Virus record (IMG/VR): IMGVR_UViG_3300046167_000694
Span: 1 to 45,619 of that record
Reading direction: 5' to 3' (one strand)
Length of the DNA stretch: 45,619 bases
Source: a virus
Shown: one piece after another, positions 565-44,959 of the stretch
Layout: each line of letters opens with the position of its first letter
How positions within the stretch are numbered: position 1 is the first letter of the stretch
The notes under the pieces: model-generated
What the model was told of the DNA's origin: nothing
Database searches by the model: none
Seen by the model: the letters and a program-made list of their open reading frames with translations, nothing else
Position numbers and translations under genes: made by a program

Positions 565-3500
565 GTGACAAAAAAATACGAGCCTAAGAACCAGTACAAG
601 CTACAGAGCGACCTCCCAGCGAGCGGCGGCAAGCTAGATGCCGAGTTTTCTGAAATTTCCGACTCAACGGACAAGATCGAAAAGTGGATTAAGCGGTCAG
701 ACCTAGATCAAGACACGGGCCGGCTGAAGGCTCACAAGGTCAATCATCACAATCTCAATCCGGATTTACTTCAGTATTTACTCGATACGGCCAATGGTGA
801 CAGCGAGCAGAATCGCGATGATGCGTTGGCGGCGTCGGCCAGTGCTGACAGGAGTGCAAATGAATCGGCTAAGTATGCGAAGAGCGCTGAAACGGCGCGT
901 GCTGGTATCGAAGGTTCGGCGGCTCGCGCTGAGGAATCGGCTGATACTGCTGAGGTGGCAGCTCAGTCTGCGGTGGAGTCATCAAGTGAGTCTGTTTCGT
1001 CTGCGGTTGACGCGAATAATGCTGCGAATCACGCAGAGGGTAGTGCTAACGAAGCATGGTTGAGCGAGAAGCAATCGGCTGACTGGGCTGAGTATTTGGC
1101 TGGCCCTGTCCCCCTGGCAGACGGGAGTTATTTACCTAACGATGCGCCGGAGTCGGTTCAGTCTGGATATTTTTCGGCCCGCTGGTGGGCAGCTCAGGCT
1201 CAGAAAATTGTTGATGAGGGTGGATCGTGGTGGCTGGGCAATCATGCGGGTCCGCCTAACGTTGATCCCCCTGCTGAAGAAGGGAATATTTACTGGGACA
1301 CGATCACGGAGACGTTCTGGATATTTGTTGACGGTGGTTGGCACGAGATAGGCCGTGCGAATGCGACGTTAGCTGATGAGCCGCCAAAGAATCCCTACAT
1401 AGGTGACATTTGGATGGACTCGGGGACCACGGCTGAAGAGTATACGTGGACGGGTCACGAGTGGGTGTCGATGACGGGCGGCGTGAGTATTGCTGATGAC
1501 TATGACGTACCGCCTAACGGTGAGTTGCATGGTGGTCGCAAGGGTGGCAATGGTCTGCTGGAATGGCACCGACTGCACACGGGCAATATTCCGGCTGACG
1601 GAGACTTGGATGGGTTAGGTGGTGATGCGTCGTTGACGACCCAGAAGCCGATCAATCAATTTTTGCAATCCGGTATACAGGCGAATGAGGTTCGGATTGA
1701 GTCGTTGGAGAATGCGCCGGAGTATGAGTTTGACACGACGCAGCTTGAGGCTGACATAAATAATCTTGAGGTTCGGGTTGAGCAGAATGAGTCTGACATT
1801 GACCTCAACCGGCAGCTCACTGAAGCGAACAAAGCGGACATTGAGGCGGAGGTCATTGCTCGCATACAGGGTGACGTAGACCTTGGTATTCGGATTGATG
1901 GCTTAGAGGATAAATTCTACGAGGATGAGGATATTCGTCAGTTATTGGCTGACGAGATCGTGGCGCGTGAGAACGGCGACATTGCCTTGGCGGGTCAGAT
2001 ACAGAAAGAGATAGCGGATCGGGTTGCGGCTGACAAGCACTTGCAAGATCAGATTGACGAGTTGCAGCCGGATAACAAGGACTATGTTGAGAAGCCGGCT
2101 GATGGTGACGACTGGTTGGTGTATCGCCAGAAAGGTGGTGCGGGTGAGTGGGCTACCGCGACGACGGACTTGATTGCGACAAACGGTGATGCGGTATTCC
2201 GCAGTGCTGACGGTCGGTTCAAGTCTCGGGGTGACTTGCCGGACCTTGCGAACCAGATGGAGGTGAATCGGTTTTTCTGGGAGCAGTTGGAGCAGTTGCT
2301 TGCCGAGCCGGAGTTGCCTGTAGATCGGTTGCCTATTTATGCGGAGGATGAGCCGGAAGAGTATCCGCACACGGACCCCGCGAGTGAGCTTGAGCCGGAT
2401 GACCAGTGGTATCAGGTTACTGATCCGGACTTTAACTATGACGACCCGCAGCCAGATGACTTGGATTTGTATATCTGGACGTTGGTTGAGGACGACTACG
2501 AGTGGGTGTTGTGGGAAGCAGAGATACCCGAGGGTGTGGTTATCATCAAGGACGAGCTTCCGGATATGGAAGAGGACTCGGTAGGTAACGGGTCGCTGTG
2601 GTTTGATAACACGCAAGACACCATGCAGCTCTTTGTTTTCCACAGTGCGTCAGATGCTTGGATTCCTGTTGCGCCTCCGACGACGCTTGAGGGTCGGGTG
2701 TCTGAGGGTGAGGCACTGCAAGCGCAGATCGTTGCTCAGATAGAAAAGAGTTTGCAGGATCAATCCGCGATCGTTGCGCAGGTAGAAACGAGTCTCGACG
2801 ATCAAGCCAAGATTGCTGCCAAGGTTGAAGAGCTAAGTATTACCAAGGGTGCGGTGGCGCGTTACGTGGTGAAGGGTGTGAGCGTTGGCGTTGCGACGCG
2901 TAACGGTGAGTTGTTTTTAAATTCGCCGGTTGCTGCCGATGTGACGTACATAAGTTTCGCGCCGTTTGACGCTAACGGGAACGCCACCAAGCCGACTAAT
3001 CCGGATGACATTGTTGAATTTATTGAGTCGTCTGGCTTCAGGAATGCGGGTGACATTACGCGCTACAAGGCGATCAGTGGTGACTCTAATGCGCTGGTGG
3101 TTGAGTATTTATCGGGAATAAATGACTTTGAGGTAGATGAGGCTGAAGAAGTTTACGTCTACCCGCAAAATCAAGACCTTGCCTCTATTGAATATGTCGA
3201 TGACAGTCTTACATCAAAGCTAAATAACTCAGGCTCCAATCAATTACCCGATGACACTGACTGGAAGGTTAAGCAGGTCAACGCAGAAGGCAAAAACAAG
3301 ACGCTGATACACAGCGTTGGTGGTCAGCTTGGCGTCTACAACTTAAAAGAGCCTGTCGAGTCACATCACGCGGCCACTAAAGCTTATGTAGACGCACATA
3401 CTAGCGGCATCTCTGCATCTAGGCCCCCAGGGCTTAGGTTTATGTGCAGCATCGTTAATTTGCCGAATGGGTATTTCCAGTGGTGGGTAAAGGAAAGCAC

Positions 3501-10281: not shown

Positions 10282-10418
10282 GTGAGACTAGTGAAATGGA
10301 GCTGGCCGCTGTCAAGCGACTGGTTAGCGCCGTGGAAACGATGGCGAATTCTCAAGAGGCTATGGTGAGATTGTTGCTAGAAATTACCGAGGCTGTAAGG
10401 AAGGCAGAGCGTGGCTAA
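10278..10418 (+). CDS. 46-residue helical protein upstream of terminase
   Basis: GTG at 10278 overlaps the lipoprotein stop (GTGA), and the stop at 10416-10418 overlaps the GTG start of terminase at 10411. The peptide is a single amphipathic helix with acidic and basic faces (M-E-L-A-A-V-K-R-L-V, then A-M-V-R-L-L-L-E-I-T-E-A-V) and no membrane segment. Gapless packing on both sides supports a real gene. It could be a coil-forming accessory of packaging. The function is unknown. Confidence 0.55.
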   Translation: MSETSEMELAAVKRLVSAVETMANSQEAMVRLLLEITEAVRKAERG

Positions 10419-12027
10419 AGCGAAAGCGCCCGCGCTCACTATCCGCAGCAAGGTTGATAAGCCCAAAGACAATGAGGATGCTTTTGACTATCTAAGGAAG
10501 CTGGAGCGATTACGTGCGCTCAAGCTGGCGCGGGACGACATACTGGCGTTTGCTCAACTAATGATGCCTAGCCTGGATGATCCTCTTGATGTAAACCGCA
10601 GCCAGTACCAAGCGGCGGCGCACCACAAGTTAATGGCCGAGGGTATTCACAAGCAGGTAAAAGGCCACAAGCCGCGCTGGATCGTGACGATGCCACCTCG
10701 ACACGGCAAGACTCAGTTGGTGACCAAATTCTATGCCGCGTGGCGCATTGGTCGGTATCCGGATGAGTCAAACGTAGTTGCAACGTATAACTCAGAGCTG
10801 GCGGGTGACTTTGGCCGAGAGGTTCGGGCGATGGTCCAGTCTGAAACCTTTATGTCGATATTTCCCGAGGTCAAGCTGCGTAAGGGTTCAGCGGCGGCAG
10901 ATCGCTTGGTAACAGAGCAGAACGGCACAACGGTATTCGTGGGTCGGGGCCAAGCGCTCTCAGGTCGTGGTGCGCACTGCCTGATCTGTGACGATCTAGT
11001 AAAAGACGCCAGTGAGGCTGACTCCCCTACTGTTCGGGAGAAAATGTGGCAATGGTTTACACAGGTCGCTATGACGCGCTTGATGAGCAGCGTGGGGACC
11101 AGTGTGATGCTGACTTTCACGCGCTGGCACGAAGATGACATTATCGGGCGGCTAACCAATCCGGATAACCCCTGCTATGACCCCGACATTGCGCGGCAGT
11201 GGGAGATTACTAATTGCCCGTTTTTTGCGGAAGATGATGACCCGCTTGGTAGAAAGGTGGGAGAGCTATTGTGGCCGGAGCGGTTTGATAAGGAGTTTGG
11301 AGAGACACAGCAGCGATTGAACCCGCGCGCGTTCCAAGCGCTGTATCAGCAAAACCCCTCGGCTCAAGAAGGCAACTACTTCAAGAAGTCATGGCTGCAT
11401 ACGTTTGAAGATGCCCCGAAAAAAGAAGAGCTGAATATTTTTGCGGCGTCAGATCATGCGGTGGCGACGGGCGAGACGAACGATAAGACGGCAATGGTCA
11501 TTGCTGGGGTAGATAAGCACGGTCAGATATATGTACTTGATTGCATCTGGGGTCGGTTTGATGCCGCGCAACAAGTCGAGAAGATGATAGAGCTTATGAA
11601 GAAGTGGGAGCCGCGAATCTGGTGGGCTGAGAAACAGCACATGGGACAGGCTTTGGGTCCATTTCTCCGCAAGCGCAAACTAGAGGAAGGTGTGAGCTGT
11701 GTGATCGAAGAGGTTCACGCCAGTAAGGATAAAGAGGCAAGAGCGCGCTCACTGCAGGGAATGATGGCAGATAACCGCGTATTCTTTCCTTATAGGTGCT
11801 GGTGGCGCATGGCCGCTGAAGATGAGATTTTGAAGTTTCCGCGATCAACGTATGACGATTTCGTGGATGCGCTGTCATGGCTGGGGATGAAGATACAGCA
11901 GCTTTACGCGGTACGAGAACCGAAAAAACTGGATGCGCCTGCCCCACGGACGTTAGAGTGGATCAAGCGAGAGTCTAAACACCAACGGCGCATGGGCGAT
12001 ATGAAAAGAATTAGGGGTGGCTGGTAA
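10411..12027 (+). CDS. terL: Terminase large subunit (packaging ATPase and nuclease)
   Basis: This 538-residue protein is the motor that pumps DNA into the prohead and cuts it. The ATPase half has Walker A M-P-P-R-H-G-K-T at residues 94-101 and Walker B L-I-C-D-D with the acidic pair at 194-195, preceded by G-R-G-Q-A-L-S-G-R-G-A. The nuclease half is RNase-H-like, with an acidic residue in A-S-D-H at about 348 and D-D-F-V-D-A-L-S-W near 482-490 supplying the last Asp. This arrangement fits the family with the TIGR01630-type C-terminal domain. Start is GTG 10411. The stop overlaps the portal ATG (TAATG). Length and motifs are complete, with no frameshift in this gene. Confidence 0.93.
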   Translation: MAKAKAPALTIRSKVDKPKDNEDAFDYLRKLERLRALKLARDDILAFAQLMMPSLDDPLDVNRSQYQAAAHHKLMAEGIHKQVKGHKPRWIVTMPPRHGKTQLVTKFYAAWRIGRYPDESNVVATYNSELAGDFGREVRAMVQSETFMSIFPEVKLRKGSAAADRLVTEQNGTTVFVGRGQALSGRGAHCLICDDLVKDASEADSPTVREKMWQWFTQVAMTRLMSSVGTSVMLTFTRWHEDDIIGRLTNPDNPCYDPDIARQWEITNCPFFAEDDDPLGRKVGELLWPERFDKEFGETQQRLNPRAFQALYQQNPSAQEGNYFKKSWLHTFEDAPKKEELNIFAASDHAVATGETNDKTAMVIAGVDKHGQIYVLDCIWGRFDAAQQVEKMIELMKKWEPRIWWAEKQHMGQALGPFLRKRKLEEGVSCVIEEVHASKDKEARARSLQGMMADNRVFFPYRCWWRMAAEDEILKFPRSTYDDFVDALSWLGMKIQQLYAVREPKKLDAPAPRTLEWIKRESKHQRRMGDMKRIRGGW

Positions 12028-24745: not shown

Positions 24746-25840
24746 ATGAATCCGTATGCAAAAGGCTTGAGCAACGCAGTTTTGGGGCAGTCAGCCCCCA
24801 CCAGTGCGGGTAAGGTGTCAACGCATTTTAACTCGCCGTATATGAAGGCTATATCGCAAAACTTGATGACGGCCATTTACGGTTCGCCTCAAGATGAGCT
24901 GACGCGCCAACAGATTGCGGCAAGCAAACTGAGTATGCAGCAAACACAGGCTGAGATGGATGCGGCTACAGCTGAAGGAATTGCTGGCACTGCGCTAGGC
25001 AATATGCTTGGCGATCAAAACTCCTATGATGAAAATGATAATTTAACAGCGTCGGCAAGGCGGCAATTGTCACAGCTTAATATTGCGGCGGGTGGGCAAC
25101 TTGGAGACTTCTTTACATTCACAGGCGATCACCAACGCACCATAGCCTCCCAGGATCATGCGGGCAACATTGCTGCGACTGCCGCAGAGACAGGGCATGG
25201 GTACGACGTAAATATGGCAGAGTTAAATCATGGCCTTGATAAAGCGCTTGCCAATTTGAATCACTCGAACACTTTGGGAAGAGATGCGATCCAAAACGAT
25301 TACACCACGGAAAGAGATAACCGTCTGCACATTCAGGGCGTCGAAGACCTAATGCTCGGTGCTTCAAACGCCCTCTACAGAGACGGCATGAACAACCAAT
25401 TTACAGCCGGCCAGAATGATCTAGACCGCCAGCTTGATCGCACACAATCAGCCGTAGACGCAGTGCTGGAAAATCAAACAGACCCGAGCCAAGTGGGTAG
25501 CATTGCCGAAATATTTGGCGTCCCTATGGGCACTGATTTGACTGAGAGCCTATCTGGAATACAACCGAACCCAACAGGGATAAAGCCGAATGAATTTATC
25601 ACCTTACTGGATACGTCATCGGAACTTCTTTGGAAGAACCTAGGCTTAGATTACAACAATGCCCAGCACAAGGAAGCCTTTGGACCAATATCCCAGAAGC
25701 TTGCGGCTCTATTGCAGGGCAACCCAAATGACGCAACCGAAATCATTGCAAGACTACAGAGTCAAGCCCGTCTTGATGACGGTGACCTAGTGTTTGATGG
25801 TGGTGATGTCGAGAGCTGGGGAATGAAGAGGAAAAATTAA
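24746..25840 (+). CDS. Hypothetical virion protein upstream of the giant protein
   Basis: This 364-residue, mostly helical, Gln/Asn/Asp-rich protein shows no hydrophobic span. The N-terminal 60 residues contain N-P-Y-A-K-G-L and [10 protein letters not shown]. The middle has Ala-rich coils ([14 protein letters not shown]), and the C-terminus is globular and acidic. Its stop overlaps the ATG of the 2109-residue gene (TAATG), indicating coupled translation. It is likely an ejection-complex partner. No family was recognised. Confidence 0.5.
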
Positions 25841-28800
25841 TGCCTGTATATGAAATGACCTCTCCGGATGGCGAGGTTTACGAAGTCACAGCCCCAGAAG
25901 GTGCCACGAAAGCCGAAATAGTGGCTTATGTGCAAAAGAACAAGCAAGGCTTTATTGGCGATCGCGTCGATCAGTTACAAGAAGCTGGCACTAATTTGCA
26001 GCGCGGCGTTAATCGCCTACACCAAAATGCGGCGATGGCATTCGGTAACTATGAAAGCGTCGCCCAGCAGGAACGTGATCTGCAGGCGCTAGGTACGGAC
26101 CCCGACGTACAGAATCTTTACGATGGCGGTCTAGGTAACCTACTCGGAAATCTTGACGGTGTTGGCAATGTTGCCTTGGAGTCAGCGGCCCAGAGCTTGG
26201 CTCCCTCCTTGGCGGCAGCTGGTGCTGGTGCAGCAGCAGGCTCTCCTTTTGGTCCCCTTGGCGTAGTGCTTGGCGCTGGAGCTGGCGCTGGACTTTCATC
26301 ATTCGGTATTGAATACCAGTCAACCATACTAAACGGATTGCGCGAGAATGGTGTTGACCTCACCGATATGGGGAACATCGAGGCAGCAGTACAGAACCCA
26401 GAGCTAATGGCGCAGGTTGGTAATGACGCACTGCAACGGGGTGTCCCTATTGCCATGCTTGATGCCTTCACTATGGGTATAGCGGGCAAGCCATTTAAGT
26501 ATATTGTTGACGCGGTTGAAGCTACGAGCAAGGCAGGCAAGGTCGCCAAATATGGAGGCGGTGCAGCTGCGGAGGTTGGCGTACAGGCTGCAGGCGGTGC
26601 GACGGGTGAGGCGTTAGCTCAAATTGCTGATACTGGTGGCATTGAAAGTGGCTTGGACATTGCGATAGAGGGATTAGCTGAGGGTCCGACTGCCGTTGTG
26701 GAAGCGCCTGCAATGATAACGGCCAGAGCATTGGCAGAGCAGAATGCGCAGATTACTACCCCTCCGGTTGAGCCTAATGAAAACAGCTCTGGAGACATAC
26801 TTTTAGATTACGCTGTCCCAGTACCCGAGGACGTGCAGCAAGAGCTAAACGACCAGAACCTACCAGCGCCAGTGCAAGCGGTTGATGAGCCAATACCAGC
26901 ACCAGTGCAAGCGGTTGACGAGCCAGTAGCAGCGCCAGTGCAAGATCAAGAGCAAGCTAAGGCTTGGAGCGAGTATAAAAAGACAAACACGGAAACTGTA
27001 GAGAACGTAGCAAAGAGGGGAGACACCGCATTCTCTCCTTACCTGCTAGATGACGGGACGATCATGTATACGGGTGGCGATCATCTTGATGCAATTATGG
27101 CCTATTACGGAAATGACCCCCATCAAGATTATGAGCGCTTCCAAAATGATACGGGCGCAAGCAGAGCTGCCTTTTTCTATGAGAACCCTGAAACCTTTGT
27201 CATCTCAGTACAGCTATTTGACCAGCAAAAGCTGACGGTAAAGCAAGCTGAAACAATGCAGCAGCTTGCAGAGCAGAACACCGCCAAAGAAACCAAGGTT
27301 ATGGTTGGTGTGTCGCCAAAGGGTGACGGCACAGAGAACCCTCCGAGCTACCAAGTTATGTCGGTGGATGAGGCGCTAAAGGGTTACAGCGATCTAGTAG
27401 TGCCTGAGCCAACACCCGAGCCTGTACCTGAGCCGACTCCCGAGCCTGCGCCGGAGCCAGTGCCTGAGCCTGCACCCGAGCCAGTGCCTGCACCCGAGCC
27501 AACGCCTGAGCCTGCACCCGAGCCAGTGCCTGAGCCTGCACCCGAGCCAACGCCTAAGCCTAAAGCCAAGCCGAAGCCTAAAGCCAAGGCCAAGCCGAAG
27601 CCAGCACCTAAGCCAGAGCCAGTACCCGAGCCTGAGCCTGAGCTTCCAGTATTAGAGGCGGCACAGAAAGAGCCTACGGGTTCCACTAAGCAGCACGAAA
27701 TACTTATGTCTCGCCTAGAGGAAGCTAAAGACCTTACCGTTACAGGCGACGTTGCTGCACGGATTATTCAGGTATATAGAGAATCTAATCAGTTGTGGGC
27801 TAACAATCTTACCGAAGAGTTTGACGAATACATGGCGGACCGCAACCAAGGCGGCAAGCCCATAAGTGCAGAGGGTGTTAGCCGCTGGTTCCAAGAACGT
27901 GCTGACAGAAGTCTTAGAAGTGACGCCTTGCAGTATCACAAAAAGCGATACAAGGACGCAGGGCCAAAAGAACGGCGGGCGTTAAACAAAAGCAAAAAGG
28001 ATGCGGAAAAGTCGTTTGACGATGACAGATTTAATTACGCAGACGTAGCCGATGAACACGATGAGGCCATCTATCAGGCTAGAAGAAAAGATGATGGAGC
28101 AGCTGATAACAGTAGCTTAATAGATTCAGTAGCGCCTGGAGCTGAAGATAGGCGTAAGAGAAGGGATACAAAGAAAGCCAAGATTCCATTCCGGAAGCGC
28201 AAAGAAGGGCCGTCCCTATCGGCTAAATCTACAGAGATATGGAGAGATTTGGCAGAGCTGGAGCCTAGTTTTGATCCAGACACCGTAAGGTCTATGCCTC
28301 CAGAGCGGCAGTTTAAGCTGGCGTCTAAGCAATTCAAACGGAAGTTTGGCTTTAAAGACATTGTTAAGGATAAGAACCACAGTACCCGTGAGGCATTGGA
28401 CCTACTAACGGATATTTATGCCAACGCCAAAACAATGGCTGCGGTGATGGAAATGCCAGAAATCATGCTGTCTTTTAACGGCAAGATAACCACCCTGCAC
28501 TTGTATTCCAGAGGTATGAATGCGCTGGCTTACCACCTTTTAAATACTAACATCGGACCCGTTACAGAAAATGGCGTAACAATACAGTCCGGAGAGCAGA
28601 TGATAGGTGTCGGGCGGCGTAACGATAGCTTTGCTCACGAATGGGGACACGCGCTTGATGGCCGGCTGATGTGGGATTACATGGTCGATTTTACCGATAT
28701 GAACGATGGCCGGTTGCTATCGGGTCAGAGCTTCGTTAATGGCATTCATAACACGACTCTGGAGCAAAATACGCAGGTAGCATTTGCCAATCTATTAAAC

Positions 28801-31800
28801 GCGCTATTCCAAGACAGTGCTGCACTGGCTAGTGAAATAATGGTACTGAAGCGAGACATAGATAAGACCAGAGACGGCACGAAAAAAGAGGCTAAGTTAA
28901 AGTCAATATTGAAGCGGCTGGAGACAGGTGAAAATAAGACTCGGCTAGACCGATTCAAAAATAGCCAGATGTTTGATAACACAAGGATCGCGGGGAAAGG
29001 ATCACCGCACCCGTATCTATCAAGACCTACGGAAATGCTAGCCCGATCATTTGAGGCATACGTGGGTTATAGGGCGGCTGGCATGGGCGCAAACGCAGAT
29101 GGCCTTGCTCGCCGTGATGCTATCTATAAAACAGAGGGGGCAATTGAATCATATCCACCAGAGTCAGATCGTCCTGCAATCTTTGCGGCATGGGACGTAC
29201 TCATTAGAGCTTTGTCGCAATCGACAATCCTCAATCCAGACTCAAAAGAAGTGCCGGCAGCTGCCCAGTACAGATTAGAAATGAAGTCTGCACCGCCAGA
29301 TGCGCGGTTAAATGCAACGCTGAAAAATCAGACCGATAGCAAGATAAAGAGGGAGATTGATAAAAACAAAAAGCTTGCTTTGCAGGCTAACAAGCTGGTC
29401 CGAGATGCTCAAATTCGCCACAAAAACTCCAAGAGCGCAGCGCTAGTAAAAGCAGAGGGTGACTTGTTAGAGGCTCAAAAAGAGCTAGACGAGGCAAAAG
29501 AATCTGGCGGTTACGGCGTAGGCAAAGCGCAGGAAAAAGTAGACAAGCTGGCCGACCAAATAGGTGATATGGAAAAGGCGGTCCCTTGGGATAAATTCTT
29601 CGATCACAAAGCCTTCCGTAAGGTTGATGAGCTGTCTCAGCAATCTATGGGAATGATTTGGTGGTCTATCCGTGGAGAGTTGCTGCACTTCCAAAATAAG
29701 TATCCAGAAAACGAAGGCTTGAAATTCGTAATCGACAAGGTTGCAACAGACCCAGGCTCCGGAACGTATCAAGGGCCAAAGTTTGAAGAGACTATTAGAC
29801 GCTACACAAGGAAGTTCGCCAATCAGGTAAGTGATATTTTCAAAAAGCACAATATCAACAAGATGGACGCAAAGCAGATGAAGATTCTGCGCGATCTAAT
29901 GGTTGCTACTGACCAAAATTACGAGCGTTTAGCAGAGGATCATCCAGAGTACCTGCGTGCTGCGGCAGACCTTAGAGTGCCACTGGACGATATTTACAAC
30001 TTCATGCAGTCAATGGGGGTTGAGCTAGGGTACGCAAAGAACGCATACCTTCCTCGGCTATGGGACGACTTAGGTATTCGTTATGCGATAGATAACGGGA
30101 ATAAATTCAAAGAGGACGCCACTAGGGTTTATCGGCTAGTTTTTGATGACGACGTAGTTGAGCAAGGAATGCTCGATGTTGCTGAAAATCCCGAAGTAAT
30201 CAAAAAGTTTGAGAGTCTGGTGCGTCGGTATATCCCTAAGAAGGATGGCACGTTCCGTAATAGGCACATGATCCATATCGGGAATAAAGGCGAGAGCATT
30301 TGGGCTGACATTCAAGACTTAAAGAAAGAGCTTGCTGATTTGCAGGAGGCTTTTAGCGCTGCCAAGGATGAAGATGCCGAAACAGATGCTATTGCGGATG
30401 AAATTCTTGATCTTGAAGAGCAATTAAATGAGAAGTATCAAGAGCTGCACCCCCATGTAAGGCACGCTTGGGCGCGTGAGTCTGCATTTGACTGGCACCA
30501 ATCAATAGCCCAGCCACAGAGTTGGTCAAGAAGCTCACTGCACGATAACGGTGTGCCGCGCTCAGACTTTGAGAGGTCAAGGCAGTTGCCACCAGAAGCC
30601 GATGAAATTATGGCCGATTGGTTGATACAGGATATTCCAGGCATTTTTGATGGTTACATTACCAAGGCAGTTCGCAGAGCTGTCTACAGCGATATGTTTG
30701 GTCGAGAGATTAGGGGTAAAAAACCAGTTGGCTGGCAGCTACACGAAGCAATGGACAATATCGCAGGGGAGCTACAGCAGCCTCATTATGAAGCCATTGA
30801 AATGGGTGTAAATCAGATTCTTGGAAATCAAGGAAATGAAGGGTTTACCTATCGCGGTCTAAGGGTAATCGCTGGAGTAAAAACAACGACCATCCCGTAT
30901 ATGCTTTTACGCGCAGTGTTTTCTCAGATTGCGGAGCCAACAATAGCGGGTATGCGCGCTAATAAGGCAATAACAGCCACCGGAAAAATTTACGGCAAAA
31001 TGGCGGCAGACTTATTTAGCATTACGAAAACGTGGGTGGGTCTGGAGCCAAGTGAAGCCTCGCGTTATCGGTATGAAATGGCACGATTCATCGGAATCAT
31101 TCAAGATGTTGGTACGGAAACATCAATGCAAAACCGGATAAATTTGGAGGCGGTTAGCAGGGGTGGCGCTGATATGTATGCGGCCATGATGATTTATTCT
31201 GGTCAGCAGCCCCTAATGATCGGAACTAAAATCGCCACTACAAGTTATGTTATGGAGCAGATGCCATTAATTGCGCAGCGTGCAAAGGACGGGGATAAAG
31301 ATTCCATAAAGTTAATGGCAGAGCTTGGGCTGGTTGAGAGGCACTGGGATTACGTAATAAAGCTTGGGCCTAAGCCTACGATTGAAGAGCTGGACCAAGC
31401 ACCAGAAACCCAGCAAATCCAAAGCGCAATTGATCGCTGGGTCCATGATTCAATTATGGACCCTGCGAGAGTTGACAAGTCGAGGTTTGCAAATCAAAAG
31501 GGCTGGGGTGGGTTGGTGATGGGCATTCTCAGCTTCGCAGCCAGATTCAACCGAATGCTTATACGCCAAGCCAAGATAATAAAAAATTATGGACCTTCTA
31601 TCTACGTACCTTCAATGGTCGCGCTCGGCACATTGATCGGGCTGCAGGGTTTAGTCTGGATGGTCCGCTACGGATTGACTGGCGACTATGAGGATGACGA
31701 TGAGTATTGGGAGAAGGTAAAAGGCGAGTTTTGGCAGCAGGCCGTGATGCGAGCAGGTTTGTTTGGAGTAACGGAGCCGATGGTCAACGCAGTTTACGGC

Positions 31801-32169
31801 ATCAAGTACCAGCGCGATATTACGTCGCTATCAGCTGGTGCGGCTCCGTCTTACTACTATAATAATATTCAGAACATCACAACAATGTTTACTGATCGAA
31901 ACAGCCCGAATACAAATACAGCGGAGCATAATGCCGTAAAATCCACTTTGGACTTAGTGATGATGGGTGCTTATTCCGCGCTCATGCACGCTCCCGTTCC
32001 GATACCTTTCAAAGCGGCTGGCACAATCGGTACTGCAATCCTCTCTACCTCTAAGAGCAGGGGGCAAATTACCGATGAAATTGTGGGTGAAAAAGGCGAG
32101 ACAAAGAAGTCTGGAAGAGGTGGTCGGGATGGTCGGGGTGGTCGCAAAGATGACCGTGAAGGCAGGTGA
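25840..32169 (+). CDS. Giant 2109-residue polyvalent virion protein with zinc-peptidase motif
   Basis: The N-terminus ([11 protein letters not shown], then [10 protein letters not shown]) is a short module common at the front of giant phage ejection proteins. Gly/Ala-rich hydrophobic stretches follow near residues 125-155. A Pro-Glu repeat with a Lys-Pro-rich end spans about 520-600. A zinc-metallopeptidase signature H-E-W-G-H lies at 933-937, followed by [13 protein letters not shown] near 1065, a combination typical of large polyvalent proteins. Then come helical domains with A-Y-L-P-R-L-W-D near 1405, a probable membrane segment near 1930, and a Gly/Arg-rich tail. It is likely ejected with the DNA, acting on the envelope or host proteins. 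It closes the late operon. Confidence 0.8.
27403..27640 (+). repeat. Low-complexity Pro-Glu / Lys-Pro repeat in the giant gene
   Basis: Units of the type CCTGAGCCAGTGCCTGAG repeat with small changes and encode P-E-P-x-P-E-P. The run passes into K-P-K-A-K repeats near 27550-27615 and back to P-E-P. The switch from acidic to basic suggests an extended, periplasm-spanning linker such as in TonB-like proteins. Confidence 0.85.
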
Positions 32170-32410: not shown

Positions 32411-33410
32411 CTATTTAGGCTCCAGATGGACCAGCGCTGAACGCTGTGCTTCGCGGTTTAAATGGCCGTAAGTTTGTTCAATCATCTGGGCGTGTATTGC
32501 CCAAAATCCGGCTAACCACAAACGTAGAAACACCGGCACTTACGAGGATGCTAGCGCAGGTATGTCTCAGGGTGTTTGGGGTGAAGTCGGTGATGCCAGC
32601 CTTGGTCTGCATGTTATTGAACGTGGTCCGGATTGAGCCATCGTTGTACAGCACGTATTTGGTATCACGTTGCTTAAACAGCTCTAACAAAAACTCCCGC
32701 AGCTTCGGGTGCATTTCAACATCACCACTGCGCTTGCTTGATTGTTTCTCGCGGTACTGGAAGTCAATGACGTTGCCACCAAAATCCACACGATCCCAGG
32801 TTAGCGTTTCAATGGCTCTTTTGCGCTGCCCAGTGTATAGACCTAGCTCAAGGTATATTTCGACCCTAGCGGGCTTCTCTGGCGTCAGACGCATAGACTT
32901 AGCGGTAGTCCGTAGATGATTAATCTCATCCCAGTTAAGCCAGCGCTTGCGAGGCGGGTTATAGGCGGGTAAGTCAATATGGGGTACGGCGTCGATAAAC
33001 CCCTCTTTCTTTGCAAAGTTAAGCGCCGCTACGAGCATACTAAGCTCCCCGCGCTGCGTACCACTGGTTACACCAGCTCTCGCAAGCCTGTACCGCGTAA
33101 TATCTGCGCGCTTGAGCTTGCCTACGACGATACTTCCAAGGATTTTATTAACGGCAGCGATCTTTGTCTTGCTGGACTCTGGGTTGATGTTGTTGATGTT
33201 GATATGTTCGATCACGTAGCGATCTAGGATTTCACCGACAGTAACAAGGTCTTCGATGCCCTGCTCTGCTTGAAGATTGATTAGTTGCTGCGCGTTAGCA
33301 ACCGCCGTTTTGTGATCGCGCGTGTAAAGGCTCTGCTTCCTGCTACGTCCGTTGTTCGGGTCGTAGTAAAATGCGTAATAGATACCATTGCTTCGCTTTT
33401 TAATTTGCAC
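32411..33410 (-). CDS. int: Tyrosine-family integrase (frameshift near 32497)
   Basis: This enzyme would recombine attP with the host attB. It has an N-terminal arm-binding segment (S-N-G-I-Y-Y-A-F-Y-Y-D), a core-binding helical domain (about 55-150) and a catalytic domain. Visible catalytic residues are Arg in Y-T-G-Q-R-K-R-A-I-E and the H/R pair in N-T-L-R-H-T-C-A-S. The frame then stops at 32478 without a tyrosine. The adjacent frame supplies M-I-E-Q-T-Y-G-H-L, which holds the nucleophilic Tyr, and ends at TAG 32411-32413, giving about 332 residues. As written the protein would lack its nucleophile. Start is GTG 33410, and the front overlaps the xis frame. Confidence 0.88.
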
Positions 33411-33550
33411 ACATATGCCTCTAAGTCGTCTGAATCAATGAGAATGGGTTTTGTTTTTAGTGCTACGAGCTTTCCCTCCTTTCTTAGTTTCGCAACCGTC
33501 TGCACGCTGACGCGCAAACGGGTAGCGACTTCACTCTGAGTCAATAACAT
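33281..33550 (-). CDS. Excisionase-like small winged-helix DNA-binding protein
   Basis: The first 50 residues have the MerR/excisionase-type helix-turn-helix pattern: L-L-T-Q-S-E-V-A-T-R-L-R-V-S, then Q-T-V-A-K-L-R-K-E-G-K-L, and a wing with K-P-I-L-I-D-S-D-D-L-E-A-Y. Such proteins bend attachment DNA and set the direction of the integrase, or place plasmid and phage proteins on DNA. The last 40 residues overlap int in another frame and look like shadow, so the true end may be earlier, obscured by an indel. ATG 33550 overlaps the end of the repressor gene, placing it in a repressor-xis-int operon. Confidence 0.65.
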   Translation of the reverse strand: MLLTQSEVATRLRVSVQTVAKLRKEGKLVALKTKPILIDSDDLEAYVCKLKSEAMVSITHFTTTRTTDVAGSRAFTRAITKRRLLTRSN

Positions 33551-33926
33551 CGGCGCCCCTTGGTATTTTTGAAATTAGCTCGTTCGCCTCCAGTAGCGTG
33601 CAAACGACGTTAATGCTTAAAAAGTAGTTGCCAGAGTTATCACCCACGGACATAAGTTTTACGCTTGGGTTTGTTGGTGACTCGTCGTATCTTCGGGGCA
33701 ACAGCTGTTCTTCTTCGATTCCAAGCTCTTTGCAGATTTGGACCATAGTTTCGTCTTTAGGTAAACACCGACCGCGCACGTAACTGCTAACAGCATCTTT
33801 AGTTAATCCTAATCGTCGAGCTAAATCGCTCTGGTTCATGTTGGCATCTCTGATTGCATCAAGCAGTTTCTTGCCGAAGACCTTCCTAGTCTCTTCCGTA
33901 CTTCTAATCCGTGTATTTCGTGACAT
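33531..33926 (-). CDS. Cro/CI-type phage repressor without a peptidase domain
   Basis: This 131-residue protein has an XRE-family helix-turn-helix at about residues 20-75: L-L-D-A-I-R-D-A-N-M-N-Q-S-D-L-A-R-R-L-G-L, then K-D-A-V-S-S-Y-V-R-G-R and L-G-I-E-E-E-Q-L-L-P. The remaining 50 residues are too short for, and do not resemble, the S24 self-cleaving domain of LexA and lambda CI. It faces away from the early operon across a 238-base gap, the usual immunity arrangement. Induction is therefore unlikely to work by RecA-triggered self-cleavage and may need an antirepressor. Confidence 0.8.
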   Translation of the reverse strand: MSRNTRIRSTEETRKVFGKKLLDAIRDANMNQSDLARRLGLTKDAVSSYVRGRCLPKDETMVQICKELGIEEEQLLPRRYDESPTNPSVKLMSVGDNSGNYFLSINVVCTLLEANELISKIPRGADVIDSE

Positions 33927-42172: not shown

Positions 42173-43192
42173 CTAGACTAAATTTTTTATATCGCTGTAA
42201 CTTTTGCCTGCGGGGTGATGCGCTTTAAACCATTCCCCGAAGTTGGCTGATGACTTGCCGAAGTGATCTGCGGCGTCAACACGACTTGCTCCGCCTTCGG
42301 CTAGCCTAAGCGCAATCTGCATCCAAGCTTCATTTCTAGCCTCAGTGAACGTCGAGCCTTCAGTCCTTAGTCTATCTTTAAACGCGGTCTCGGATTGCCC
42401 GATCTCTTTTGCTGTGGATTTCAAATCCACGTCAAGCGGGTCCATTTGGCGAACGGTATCAATAACGGTACGGGTGTAACTTTTGTTATCTTTTGCCGTT
42501 ATAGAATCAAAAAACAACTCAGCATATTCTTTGGACACTTTGTAGACCAATTCATCGCTATTAATAAGCCGCTGCTTTAAAAACGCAGCCGGAACATGCA
42601 GACCCATTTCCTTGCTAGTGCCACACCAGTTAATCGTAATGTTATTTAATGCGCCTGAGATTAGATCAGCAGCGACAACGCAATCCGTAGGTAGTGTTAA
42701 AACGCATTTGCGAATCGGAACCCCATCGCAGCCCTGCGCTAAAATCTCACTGGCAATTTTAGCGGTTGCCATGATCGCGCACTCTCGGCACCCAGCCGTG
42801 AGGTTTTTATCCATTTCCCACGTCAACTCAGCATCGCCGTTGATAACAAACATTTTAACTCTAGTGCCACTTTCATTATTTGTTACCCGCACGGCCCAAG
42901 CTAACGCCGCTTGGACGTTTGGCGCTGAAAGCATTACCGCCGCAGCTGGACCCATATAGCTCAGTCGAATTTCGCGCGCGAATAAAAAGCTCGCTGACAC
43001 CCCCATTTTGTCCACCAGCAAATCCATAACCGCGTTTAAGTCTTCGGGGGTACACGTCATCTCGCTATTGATTCGGTCTACATCAATGTCGCGCTCATTA
43101 AAATGTTTATCAATATTAGGCCAGCGCTGCCTCAGTAAGTGGATGCCACGGCGCGCATAGGTGGATAGGTAGGTATAGCTGCTTATATTCAT
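42173..43192 (-). CDS. AraC-family transcription regulator (phage-borne)
   Basis: The 339-residue architecture matches the AraC regulators with an N-terminal arabinose-binding-like domain. A long N-terminal sensor region (about 1-240) contains a V-Q-A-A-L-A-W-A-V-R segment. Then two helix-turn-helix units span about 255-335: L-K-S-T-A-K-E-I-G-Q-S-E-T-A-F-K-D-R-L, and S-R-V-D-A-A-D-H-F-G-K-S-S-A-N-F-G-E-W-F-K-A-H-H. The second ends in P-A-G-K-S-Y-S-D-I. Spacing and the final P-x-x-Y-like motif fit the family. Such regulators are rare in phages. It faces a small rightward gene across an AT-rich gap holding an 18-bp palindrome. Confidence 0.78.
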   Translation of the reverse strand: MNISSYTYLSTYARRGIHLLRQRWPNIDKHFNERDIDVDRINSEMTCTPEDLNAVMDLLVDKMGVSASFLFAREIRLSYMGPAAAVMLSAPNVQAALAWAVRVTNNESGTRVKMFVINGDAELTWEMDKNLTAGCRECAIMATAKIASEILAQGCDGVPIRKCVLTLPTDCVVAADLISGALNNITINWCGTSKEMGLHVPAAFLKQRLINSDELVYKVSKEYAELFFDSITAKDNKSYTRTVIDTVRQMDPLDVDLKSTAKEIGQSETAFKDRLRTEGSTFTEARNEAWMQIALRLAEGGASRVDAADHFGKSSANFGEWFKAHHPAGKSYSDIKNLV

Positions 43193-43515: not shown

Positions 43516-43731
43516 TTAAATTTGGTCATTGAGCGACTTGAGAATAGCCTCGATCTCATCTATTTCCTGCCTGAGATTCTTCAGCTTTTCAGTGTAACAG
43601 CGAATTTTTCTCACGATAACCTTGTCACTCAATGGCTTGCTGCGGCGTACCAGCTCCTTTTCAGCGGCTAAACCCTGCTCACTGTCAATAAGCGCCAGAC
43701 TGCGCAGCTTGGATTCGTCCCAGTTTCTCAT
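43516..43731 (-). CDS. Small coiled-coil hypothetical protein
   Basis: ATG 43731 is preferred to 43809 because GAGG lies five bases upstream and it avoids overlap with the nuclease gene. The 71 residues start M-R-N-W-D-E-S-K-L and end in a coil, L-K-N-L-R-Q-E-I-D-E-I-E-A-I-L-K. It lies 28 bases after the GIY-YIG gene in the same operon and may assist it. The function is unknown. Confidence 0.5.
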   Translation of the reverse strand: MRNWDESKLRSLALIDSEQGLAAEKELVRRSKPLSDKVIVRKIRCYTEKLKNLRQEIDEIEAILKSLNDQI

Positions 43732-43759
43732 GCTGACCTCACCTGCAAGCTGATAAACC

Positions 43760-44000
43760 TTACCAAGCTCGTGATCGGTGTAGCGTCCTGAACTCAGTGT
43801 GGCCGTCAATGCTAGTCGGGTAGTCCACGCTCTCGCCCATCTCTAGCGCCTTGCGCTCAATGTCTCTAGCGTTAGGGGCCGCAAGTATTAGGACAATGTT
43901 AGCCTTCATTTTGTTTTGCCTCGTGCATATCGCAATGCGATCATCTGCAAGGCGCTCACTGGTGATGCCGACCTTGTACACGCCTGCGTCTTCTGCGTTT
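43760..44000 (-). CDS. GIY-YIG-like nuclease domain, C-terminal part of the zinc-finger gene
   Basis: After removal of one T at 43998-44000 the chain reads V-F-Y-I-W-E-N-A-E-D-A-G-V-Y-K-V-G-I-T-S-E-R-L, then a central helix and D-G-H-T-E-F. F-Y-I and Y-K-V-G-I-T correspond to the GIY...YIG strands in the T5orf172/MUG113-like branch, and T-E provides the metal-binding Glu. An Arg in the helix after G-I-T-S is in the expected place (D-D-R-I-A). Zinc-finger plus GIY-YIG proteins cut DNA, as in homing or host-DNA degradation enzymes. Target specificity would come from the three modules. Confidence 0.72.
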
Positions 44001-44597
44001 CTCCCAGATGTAAAAAACATTGGCGTCTGTAGCAATTGCGTTGCAGGTGGGGCAGCCAGTGCCTTTTTTAATACTGCTCGGCACTGCAGGCCACTGATGC
44101 CCCTCTGAGCATTGGTGCTTAATTGGAGTGTGCGCGCCGGCATAAGGCTCTAACGCAACAATGCCCCTGCCGTCCTGCTCAAGCCAAGCGCTGTATTGCT
44201 CTGTATTATGTTTGCATTTATTGCGACTGCAATCACCGCAACCTTTGCCCGCTTTAATATCGCGAGGCTTTACCTCCCACTGATGACCTTTTAAACATTG
44301 ATGTAGGATTTTGGTAGCGCTCCCTACATACGGCTCAAGCGCCACGATGCCTCGCCCATCCTGCTCTAGCCATTCGCTGTACTGCCCTGCATCGTGTTTA
44401 AGGATTTTCCGGTAGCAAATAACGCAACCTTTGCCGCGTTTAATACTGACAGGCATTACCGGCCACGAATGCCCTTCTGAGCATTGGTGCAGGATTTTGG
44501 TGAGGTTATTCACATACGGCTCAAGCGCGACAATGCCGCGCCCGTCCTGCTCAAGCCACTCGTTGTATTCGCCTGGGGTTATTTTTTTACGTGTCAT
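43956..44597 (-). CDS. Triple zinc-finger protein, N-terminal part of a GIY-YIG-like nuclease
   Basis: Three tandem modules of exactly 62 residues start near residues 11, 73 and 135. Each begins Y-x-x-W-L-E-Q-D-G-R-G-I-V-A-L-E-P-Y and ends with zinc ligands in the pattern C-x3-H-x14-C-x2-C (C39, H43, C58, C61, and the same at +62 and +124). H-x-C-x-x-G-H-x-W with a later G-x-G-C-x-x-C is typical of treble-clef zinc fingers of phage nucleases. The frame then degrades into an Arg run and stops at 43956. The other frame continues with a nuclease domain, so the whole gene is 43760-44597, about 278 residues. ATG 44597 overlaps the preceding stop (TAATG). Confidence 0.8.
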   Translation of the reverse strand: MTRKKITPGEYNEWLEQDGRGIVALEPYVNNLTKILHQCSEGHSWPVMPVSIKRGKGCVICYRKILKHDAGQYSEWLEQDGRGIVALEPYVGSATKILHQCLKGHQWEVKPRDIKAGKGCGDCSRNKCKHNTEQYSAWLEQDGRGIVALEPYAGAHTPIKHQCSEGHQWPAVPSSIKKGTGCPTCNAIATDANVFYIWEKRRRRRRVQGRHHQ

Positions 44598-44959
44598 TAC
44601 ACGTTTCGCCCATATCCGAATGTCGCCGTCACGTCATAACAAGGCTTGCTGTTACCGTATATATTGCGCGTCGGCTTAATGTCGATCTTTACGTGGCTAG
44701 TAAACCAGCACCCGCAGCAATCGTGGGAGTGACTGCAGCCGTCGTTATAATAAAGCCGGTGCAAGGAATCTTCTATGCGCTCCTTAGTTTTTGATATGCG
44801 CGCCAGCGAATCCGACTCAACAACCGTGCAGTTGACAATAAAACCGGCACTCTCGTCGTCATCTTCTATCGACTGATAAAAACTCGGGTATACGCTTTCA
44901 AGCTTTTCCTGCTCAAACACGCGGCTCATTCGCTCGCTCATCTCATTTGCACTATCCAT
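44597..44959 (-). CDS. Hypothetical protein with a Cys/His cluster
   Basis: ATG 44959 (120 residues) is chosen for its AGGGAG ribosome site; the frame is open to 44992. The N-terminal half is helical and acidic. Residues near 80-92 contain C-S-H-S-H-D-C-C-G-C-W, a dense metal-binding cluster, followed by beta strands (F-T-S-H-V-K-I-D-I-K-P). Its stop overlaps the ATG of the zinc-finger nuclease, so both are coupled. A metal-dependent role with the nuclease is possible but unproven. Confidence 0.6.
   Translation of the reverse strand: MDSANEMSERMSRVFEQEKLESVYPSFYQSIEDDDESAGFIVNCTVVESDSLARISKTKERIEDSLHRLYYNDGCSHSHDCCGCWFTSHVKIDIKPTRNIYGNSKPCYDVTATFGYGRNV

Follow-up and report, generated by a model that had tools for sequence, protein, structure and literature searches.

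The window (45,619 bases, the whole stretch analysed here, from IMGVR_UViG_3300046167_000694) is the contig of an uncultivated tailed phage that encodes a terminase, a portal, a helicase, a primase and a RecE-like exonuclease. On its minus strand, close to the right end, lies a zinc-finger/nuclease gene. The main open reading frame of this gene (43956-44597) encodes a 213-aa protein with three zinc modules, a first nuclease motif and a frame-shifted tail (KRRRRRRVQGRHHQ); the rest of the nuclease domain and its C-terminal tail follow in two other frames. The neighbours on the same strand are an upstream gene for a 120-aa protein with a Cys/His cluster (CSHSHDCCGC; 44597-44959) and a downstream gene for a 71-aa predicted coiled-coil protein (43516-43731), and both products are orphans.

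Zinc-module array and leader

Module 1 spans residues 8-62 (44412-44576; ligands C39, H43, C58 and C61), module 2 residues 70-124 (44226-44390; ligands C101, H105, C120 and C123), and module 3 residues 132-186 (44040-44204; ligands C163, H167, C182 and C185). The preliminary description of three 62-residue repeats with zinc ligands was borne out: the module anchors are exactly 62 residues apart, the gene contains three direct repeats at 186-nt steps, and 3/3 modules show the ligand pattern C-x3-H-x14-C-x2-C. At an offset of 62 the protein is identical to itself at 78 of 137 residues, whereas 2,000 shuffles, scored at every offset between 20 and 100, gave at most 22. The triple repeat is real and far beyond chance expectation. 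DUF4379 (Pfam), a probable treble-clef zinc finger, matches all three modules in three stretches (E=1.8e-12, 47.7 bits, cut-off 24.5), and the Pfam CapR domain matches the 213-aa protein (E=7e-6, 26.6 bits, cut-off 24.2). The zinc-finger assignment, which the preliminary description had made dependent on a profile match, thus has two matches above the Pfam cut-offs. In a structure model of the read-through protein the repeated modules mostly reached a pLDDT of 70-90. Judged by these profile matches, the window gene possesses the N-terminal zinc fingers of CapR/DUF723/DUF4379 type that belong to a T5orf172-type homing endonuclease.

Each module contains a 15-residue leader, WLEQDGRGIVALEPY (44514-44558, 44328-44372 and 44142-44186 in modules 1, 2 and 3, respectively). 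Earlier called almost invariant, it is in fact identical at 15/15 positions in all three modules. The leader codons vary between modules (5, 7 and 10 nucleotide changes) and every change is synonymous; in the remainder of the module the changes are spread near-evenly over the three codon positions. Recent homogenisation was considered as the cause of the identity and rejected, since third codon positions differ in the leader about as often as elsewhere (5, 5 and 8 of 15 vs. 16, 23 and 29 of 47 in the module remainder). We concluded that the leader has been kept by selection and not recently copied, because its changes are synonymous and those elsewhere in the module are even across codon positions. 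The finger faces have diverged among the three modules while the leader stayed constant, a combination that would be compatible with a fixed pitch-setting frame carrying module-specific reading faces. We regard as unlikely a finger code in which the leader fixes the pitch, every face recognises a constant number of base pairs and the module number (2 to 6 in the family) sets the site length; no answer as to whether module number sets site length was found in the literature on these zinc-module nucleases.

Nuclease domain and frame breaks

The first nuclease motif, NVFYIWEK (43998-44021, minus strand), contains the invariant Tyr and is read in the finger frame; the first break lies at its end. 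The rest of the GIY-YIG-like domain (43787-43999, minus strand) is in the next frame and reads VYKVGITSERL...DRI...NARDIE...DGHTEFR, which includes the VYKVGIT, R, E and DGHTEFR motifs. A GIY-YIG-like C-terminus had been proposed for this gene; the domain is present, and only its FYIW stretch falls inside the 213-aa frame.

The breaks were located with the help of an intact relative, L011 (IMGVR_UViG_3300014775_001314, gene at 2040-3278), which was found in IMG/VR with a two-member nuclease alignment. IMG/VR searches with the window's own fingers or its own nuclease half gave no match, nor did the two-member alignment as a query against genome_contigs. The L011 nuclease domain is 63-68% identical to that of the window and follows an array of like modules at intervals of 66, 61, 62 and 62 residues. 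L011 differs from the window in having five modules, an unbroken frame and other neighbours, and its modules are only 29-40% identical to those of the window. Alignment of the L011 product to the window placed one frame change near 43998-44003, within the region (43980-44010) where a break had been suspected, and a second near 43785-43787 that had been missed. Beyond the second break the nuclease C-terminal tail RYTDHELGKVYQLA (43744-43785, minus strand) is read in the third frame, the one used by the downstream coiled-coil ORF. It matches RYSDAELGEVWRMA of L011 (57% identity over 14 residues, short and weak by itself) and adjoins the preceding aligned piece exactly in both sequences. With two breaks and a tail in the third frame, the true 3' end of the gene is at about 43744, and not at 43760 as first described. 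Each break amounts to a net shift of one base, in the same direction for both, and as a result the invariant Tyr is in another frame than the invariant Gly, Arg and Glu. A single ORF joining reader and nuclease exists in L011 and is missing in the window; hence the window copy is a broken member. Programmed frameshifting was set aside, because two shifts would be required and a single frame suffices for the same protein in L011. Since the main frame yields just three fingers and a basic tail, no nuclease activity is expected from the window copy unless the breaks are assembly errors.

The nuclease domain alone scored below the cut-off of 20 bits for T5orf172 (Pfam), with 15.0 bits (E=0.036) for the window and 19.4 bits for L011. 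A single uninterrupted match to phrog_681, annotated 'endonuclease', covered residues 25-271 of the read-through protein (E=1.3e-35); the E-value for the nuclease domain alone was 6e-5. Five residues (Y10, K22, G24, R34 and E61) are invariant across seven nuclease relatives, and all five are present in the window, split over two frames; the putative GIY-YIG catalytic residues (Tyr, Gly, Arg and Glu) are among them. A profile of the seven relatives could be aligned across 86 columns to two proven T5orf172 domains (E=2.6e-4, probability 42%). The GIY-YIG match on which the earlier assignment hinged is accordingly made up of the phrog_681 match, the shared Tyr/Lys-x-Gly/Arg/Glu residues and the T5orf172 profile alignment. 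We claim no fold evidence, because the nuclease part of the read-through model had a pLDDT below 50 and was unusable, the intact L011 domain folded alone was poor (mean 43), and a Foldseek search gave no significant match. The sequence comparisons give good but not complete support for placing the domain on a divergent branch of the GIY-YIG nucleases of T5orf172/MUG113 type.

The two breaks fall within about 0.84 kb, whereas ∼40 kb of other contig ORFs of at least 150 codons look unbroken, which favours decay rather than random sequencing error. That the real phage has an intact gene and that both breaks are metagenome assembly errors is nonetheless a possibility to be taken seriously, if a somewhat doubtful one. 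The shared direction of the two single-base shifts and the position of the gene near a contig end speak for such errors, as does the continued conservation of the nuclease residues after the first break (63-68% identity to L011), with dN (0.24) much below dS (near saturation). Selection on the nuclease is thus not visibly relaxed, so the break is either recent or an error. Against errors, no other long ORF of the contig looks broken, and well-sequenced ICP1 isolates often carry frameshifted homing genes of just this T5orf172/zinc-finger family (PMC10448857).

Relatives and known systems

Relatives of the finger part were found in 240 phage records, many of them annotated as homing, HNH or GIY-YIG endonucleases. 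As the preliminary description had anticipated, homologues with other repeat numbers exist: GIY-YIG-type ends carry 2 (Bf23), 3 (ZJUN2) or 5 modules (RcXuper and L011), and Vsr-like ends carry 3 or 4 (P70 and L008; ends assigned by eye). Escherichia phage vB_EcoS_HZ_ZJUN2 (WVX92493.1) encodes three DUF4379/CapR modules and Bf23 (WLW40688.1) two, in each case followed by T5orf172/MUG113. Unlike the window gene these two are intact; their identity to it is ∼31-33%, and the ZJUN2 gene adjoins nrdD. In Rhodobacter phage RcXuper (UVD36523.1) five modules follow one another at a spacing of exactly 61 residues and lead into a GIY-YIG-like start; this protein differs from that of the window in its larger C-terminal part, which scores weakly as GIY-YIG. 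Proteins with another nuclease type, namely gp102 of Listeria phage P70 and the group II intron endonucleases reported in PMC12350094, resemble the window gene in their three to five CapR/DUF4379-like modules of ∼60 residues; their C-termini are Vsr/EDxHD-like (by eye for P70 gp102, per PMC12350094 for the intron proteins) and not GIY-YIG.

Even spacing (61-63) and leader conservation within a protein are also found in relatives. The leader itself differs across proteins, being xALGKGIxVVGEYV in L011 and RLAERGFELAGPYVG in RcXuper, where it is near-invariant in 4/5 modules (the first four). L011 and RcXuper show the contrast between leader and fingers less strongly, and P70 and ZJUN2 lack it; it therefore does not hold across the family.

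Barth et al. (2023, PMC10448857) have described T5orf172 homing endonucleases of phages in which CapR/DUF723/DUF4379 zinc fingers are repeated; the number of modules varies, domains are swapped and frameshifts are frequent. Fingers of this type occur on 87% of 229 such enzymes, many with several, and the modules were proposed to cooperate like beads on a string; one six-repeat case, one in-frame repeat loss and the swapping of readers and nucleases were also shown (PMC10448857). The window gene shares with these enzymes the N-terminal array of related fingers and the C-terminal GIY-YIG-type domain, and is unlike them in its divergent nuclease domain that falls under the Pfam T5orf172 cut-off. 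The preliminary description was therefore right that zinc-finger GIY-YIG nucleases are known in phages (PMC10448857). The regular leader-plus-finger unit, which it had held to be new, is not, given the repeated fingers on T5orf172/GIY-YIG enzymes in the same work and the five evenly spaced modules of RcXuper. The design, with two to six fingers on a GIY-YIG nuclease in phage genes, is already known.

Nuclease domains of the window type were also seen behind other readers. In Aeromonas phage Ahp1_CNU-2021 (L013 1371-2285) the domain follows DUF723-type fingers in a protein annotated as hypothetical only; the gene is flanked on either side by an annotated class III ribonucleotide reductase gene, a typical position for a homing gene. 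In Vibrio phages 1.210.O and pYD38-B (L002 2305-3264 and L015 1419-2276) it follows unrelated repeats of roughly 35-50 residues that lack cysteine clusters and match no Pfam family above cut-off. Swapping of DNA-binding parts is thus seen in the nuclease branch of the window as well.

Interpretation, neighbours and phage setting

We consider it likely that the gene is a free-standing one for a phage homing endonuclease, T5orf172-like (GIY-YIG) in kind and most probably in decay. In the intact form, as inferred from relatives, three adjacent treble-clef modules would together bind a long DNA site, and the finger array would position the C-terminal GIY-YIG domain for cutting close by. The nuclease would then cut related phage genomes that lack the gene, and the gene would spread when the cut is repaired on the template of the uncut copy; that a protein of the window type binds DNA, cuts it and homes is in each case inferred. 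Besides the nuclease scores below the T5orf172 cut-off, the unusable nuclease models and the lack of visible relaxation of selection, one more feature counts against a decaying homing gene: beyond the second break there is no stop between the nuclease tail and the coiled-coil frame.

It is improbable, in our estimate, that the truncated 213-aa product is itself in use as a CapR-like repressor, made up of three fingers and a basic tail after loss of the nuclease. The fingers do match the CapR domain, the leader shows synonymous codon changes only, and a repressor that lacks a nuclease, CapR of PLE satellites, is related to these enzymes (PMC10448857). That CapR has the CapR domain without a nuclease and represses a capsid promoter, whereas the window combines the CapR match with a nuclease half that is still conserved and that a repressor would not need; moreover, the basic tail is a chance product of the shifted frame. 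We give little credence to an anti-competitor nuclease like Odn of ICP1, which would cut a satellite or a rival phage and not spread itself. In Odn a T5orf172 domain is joined to a DNA-binding part that has been exchanged (PMC8263062), and domain exchange is seen in the window's nuclease subfamily too, but the Odn reader is a RepA_N domain and not a finger array.

The three genes had been suggested to form a unit. The stop codon of the upstream gene and the ATG of the zinc-finger gene share one base (TAATG), so co-translation with the Cys/His protein is plausible. The downstream gene does encode a predicted coiled coil, probably from its own ATG at 43731, but the first ∼26 codons of the ORF at 43516-43809 are, or overlap, the nuclease tail. 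The Cys/His protein had no relative in annotated phages or in IMG/VR, the coiled-coil protein none in annotated phages, and no counterpart of either was found beside the fetched nuclease and finger relatives. With neighbours that have no detectable relatives, the three-gene unit and the conservation of its neighbours are unsupported. Despite the tight packing and the one-base overlap, a conserved functional trio of Cys/His protein, nuclease and coiled-coil protein is highly improbable, since the neighbours are missing beside the fetched relatives and the presumed coiled-coil ORF is partly the nuclease's own tail.

Returning to the probable decaying homing gene, the window copy alone is one more broken copy in a family that has been described. 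Its value lies in the invariant leader with drifting codons set against differing finger faces inside one array, and the window array and the intact five-module L011, with the same nuclease, form a natural pair for asking how the modules read DNA and whether their number determines the length of the site.

The surroundings of the gene were compared as well. The right 20.6 kb of the window had no DNA match in annotated phages, and no close contig relative was found; nor was a sister phage without the zinc-finger/nuclease gene. A terminase match, sought in the L011 contig (10,962 bases) for an empty-site comparison, was absent. An Rfam search around the gene, introns included, gave no known RNA family. 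A 339-aa protein (42173-43192, minus strand) shows a weak match to Arabinose_bd, the AraC-type N-terminal domain (E=5e-4, below cut-off), and has a C-terminal helix-turn-helix that is AraC-like by eye; an IMG/VR search gave no relative. AraC-type regulators are unusual in phages. An integrase gene (32481-33410, minus strand; E=1.2e-13) adjoins a gene for a Cro/C1-type repressor (33534-33926, minus strand), and the phage is therefore probably temperate. Downstream of the structural genes a single ORF (25840-32169, plus strand) encodes 2,109 aa. The closest relatives of the terminase (10411-12024, plus strand) are those of Microcystis phage Mae-Yong1326-1 and Rhizobium phage RHph_N65, at ∼43%.
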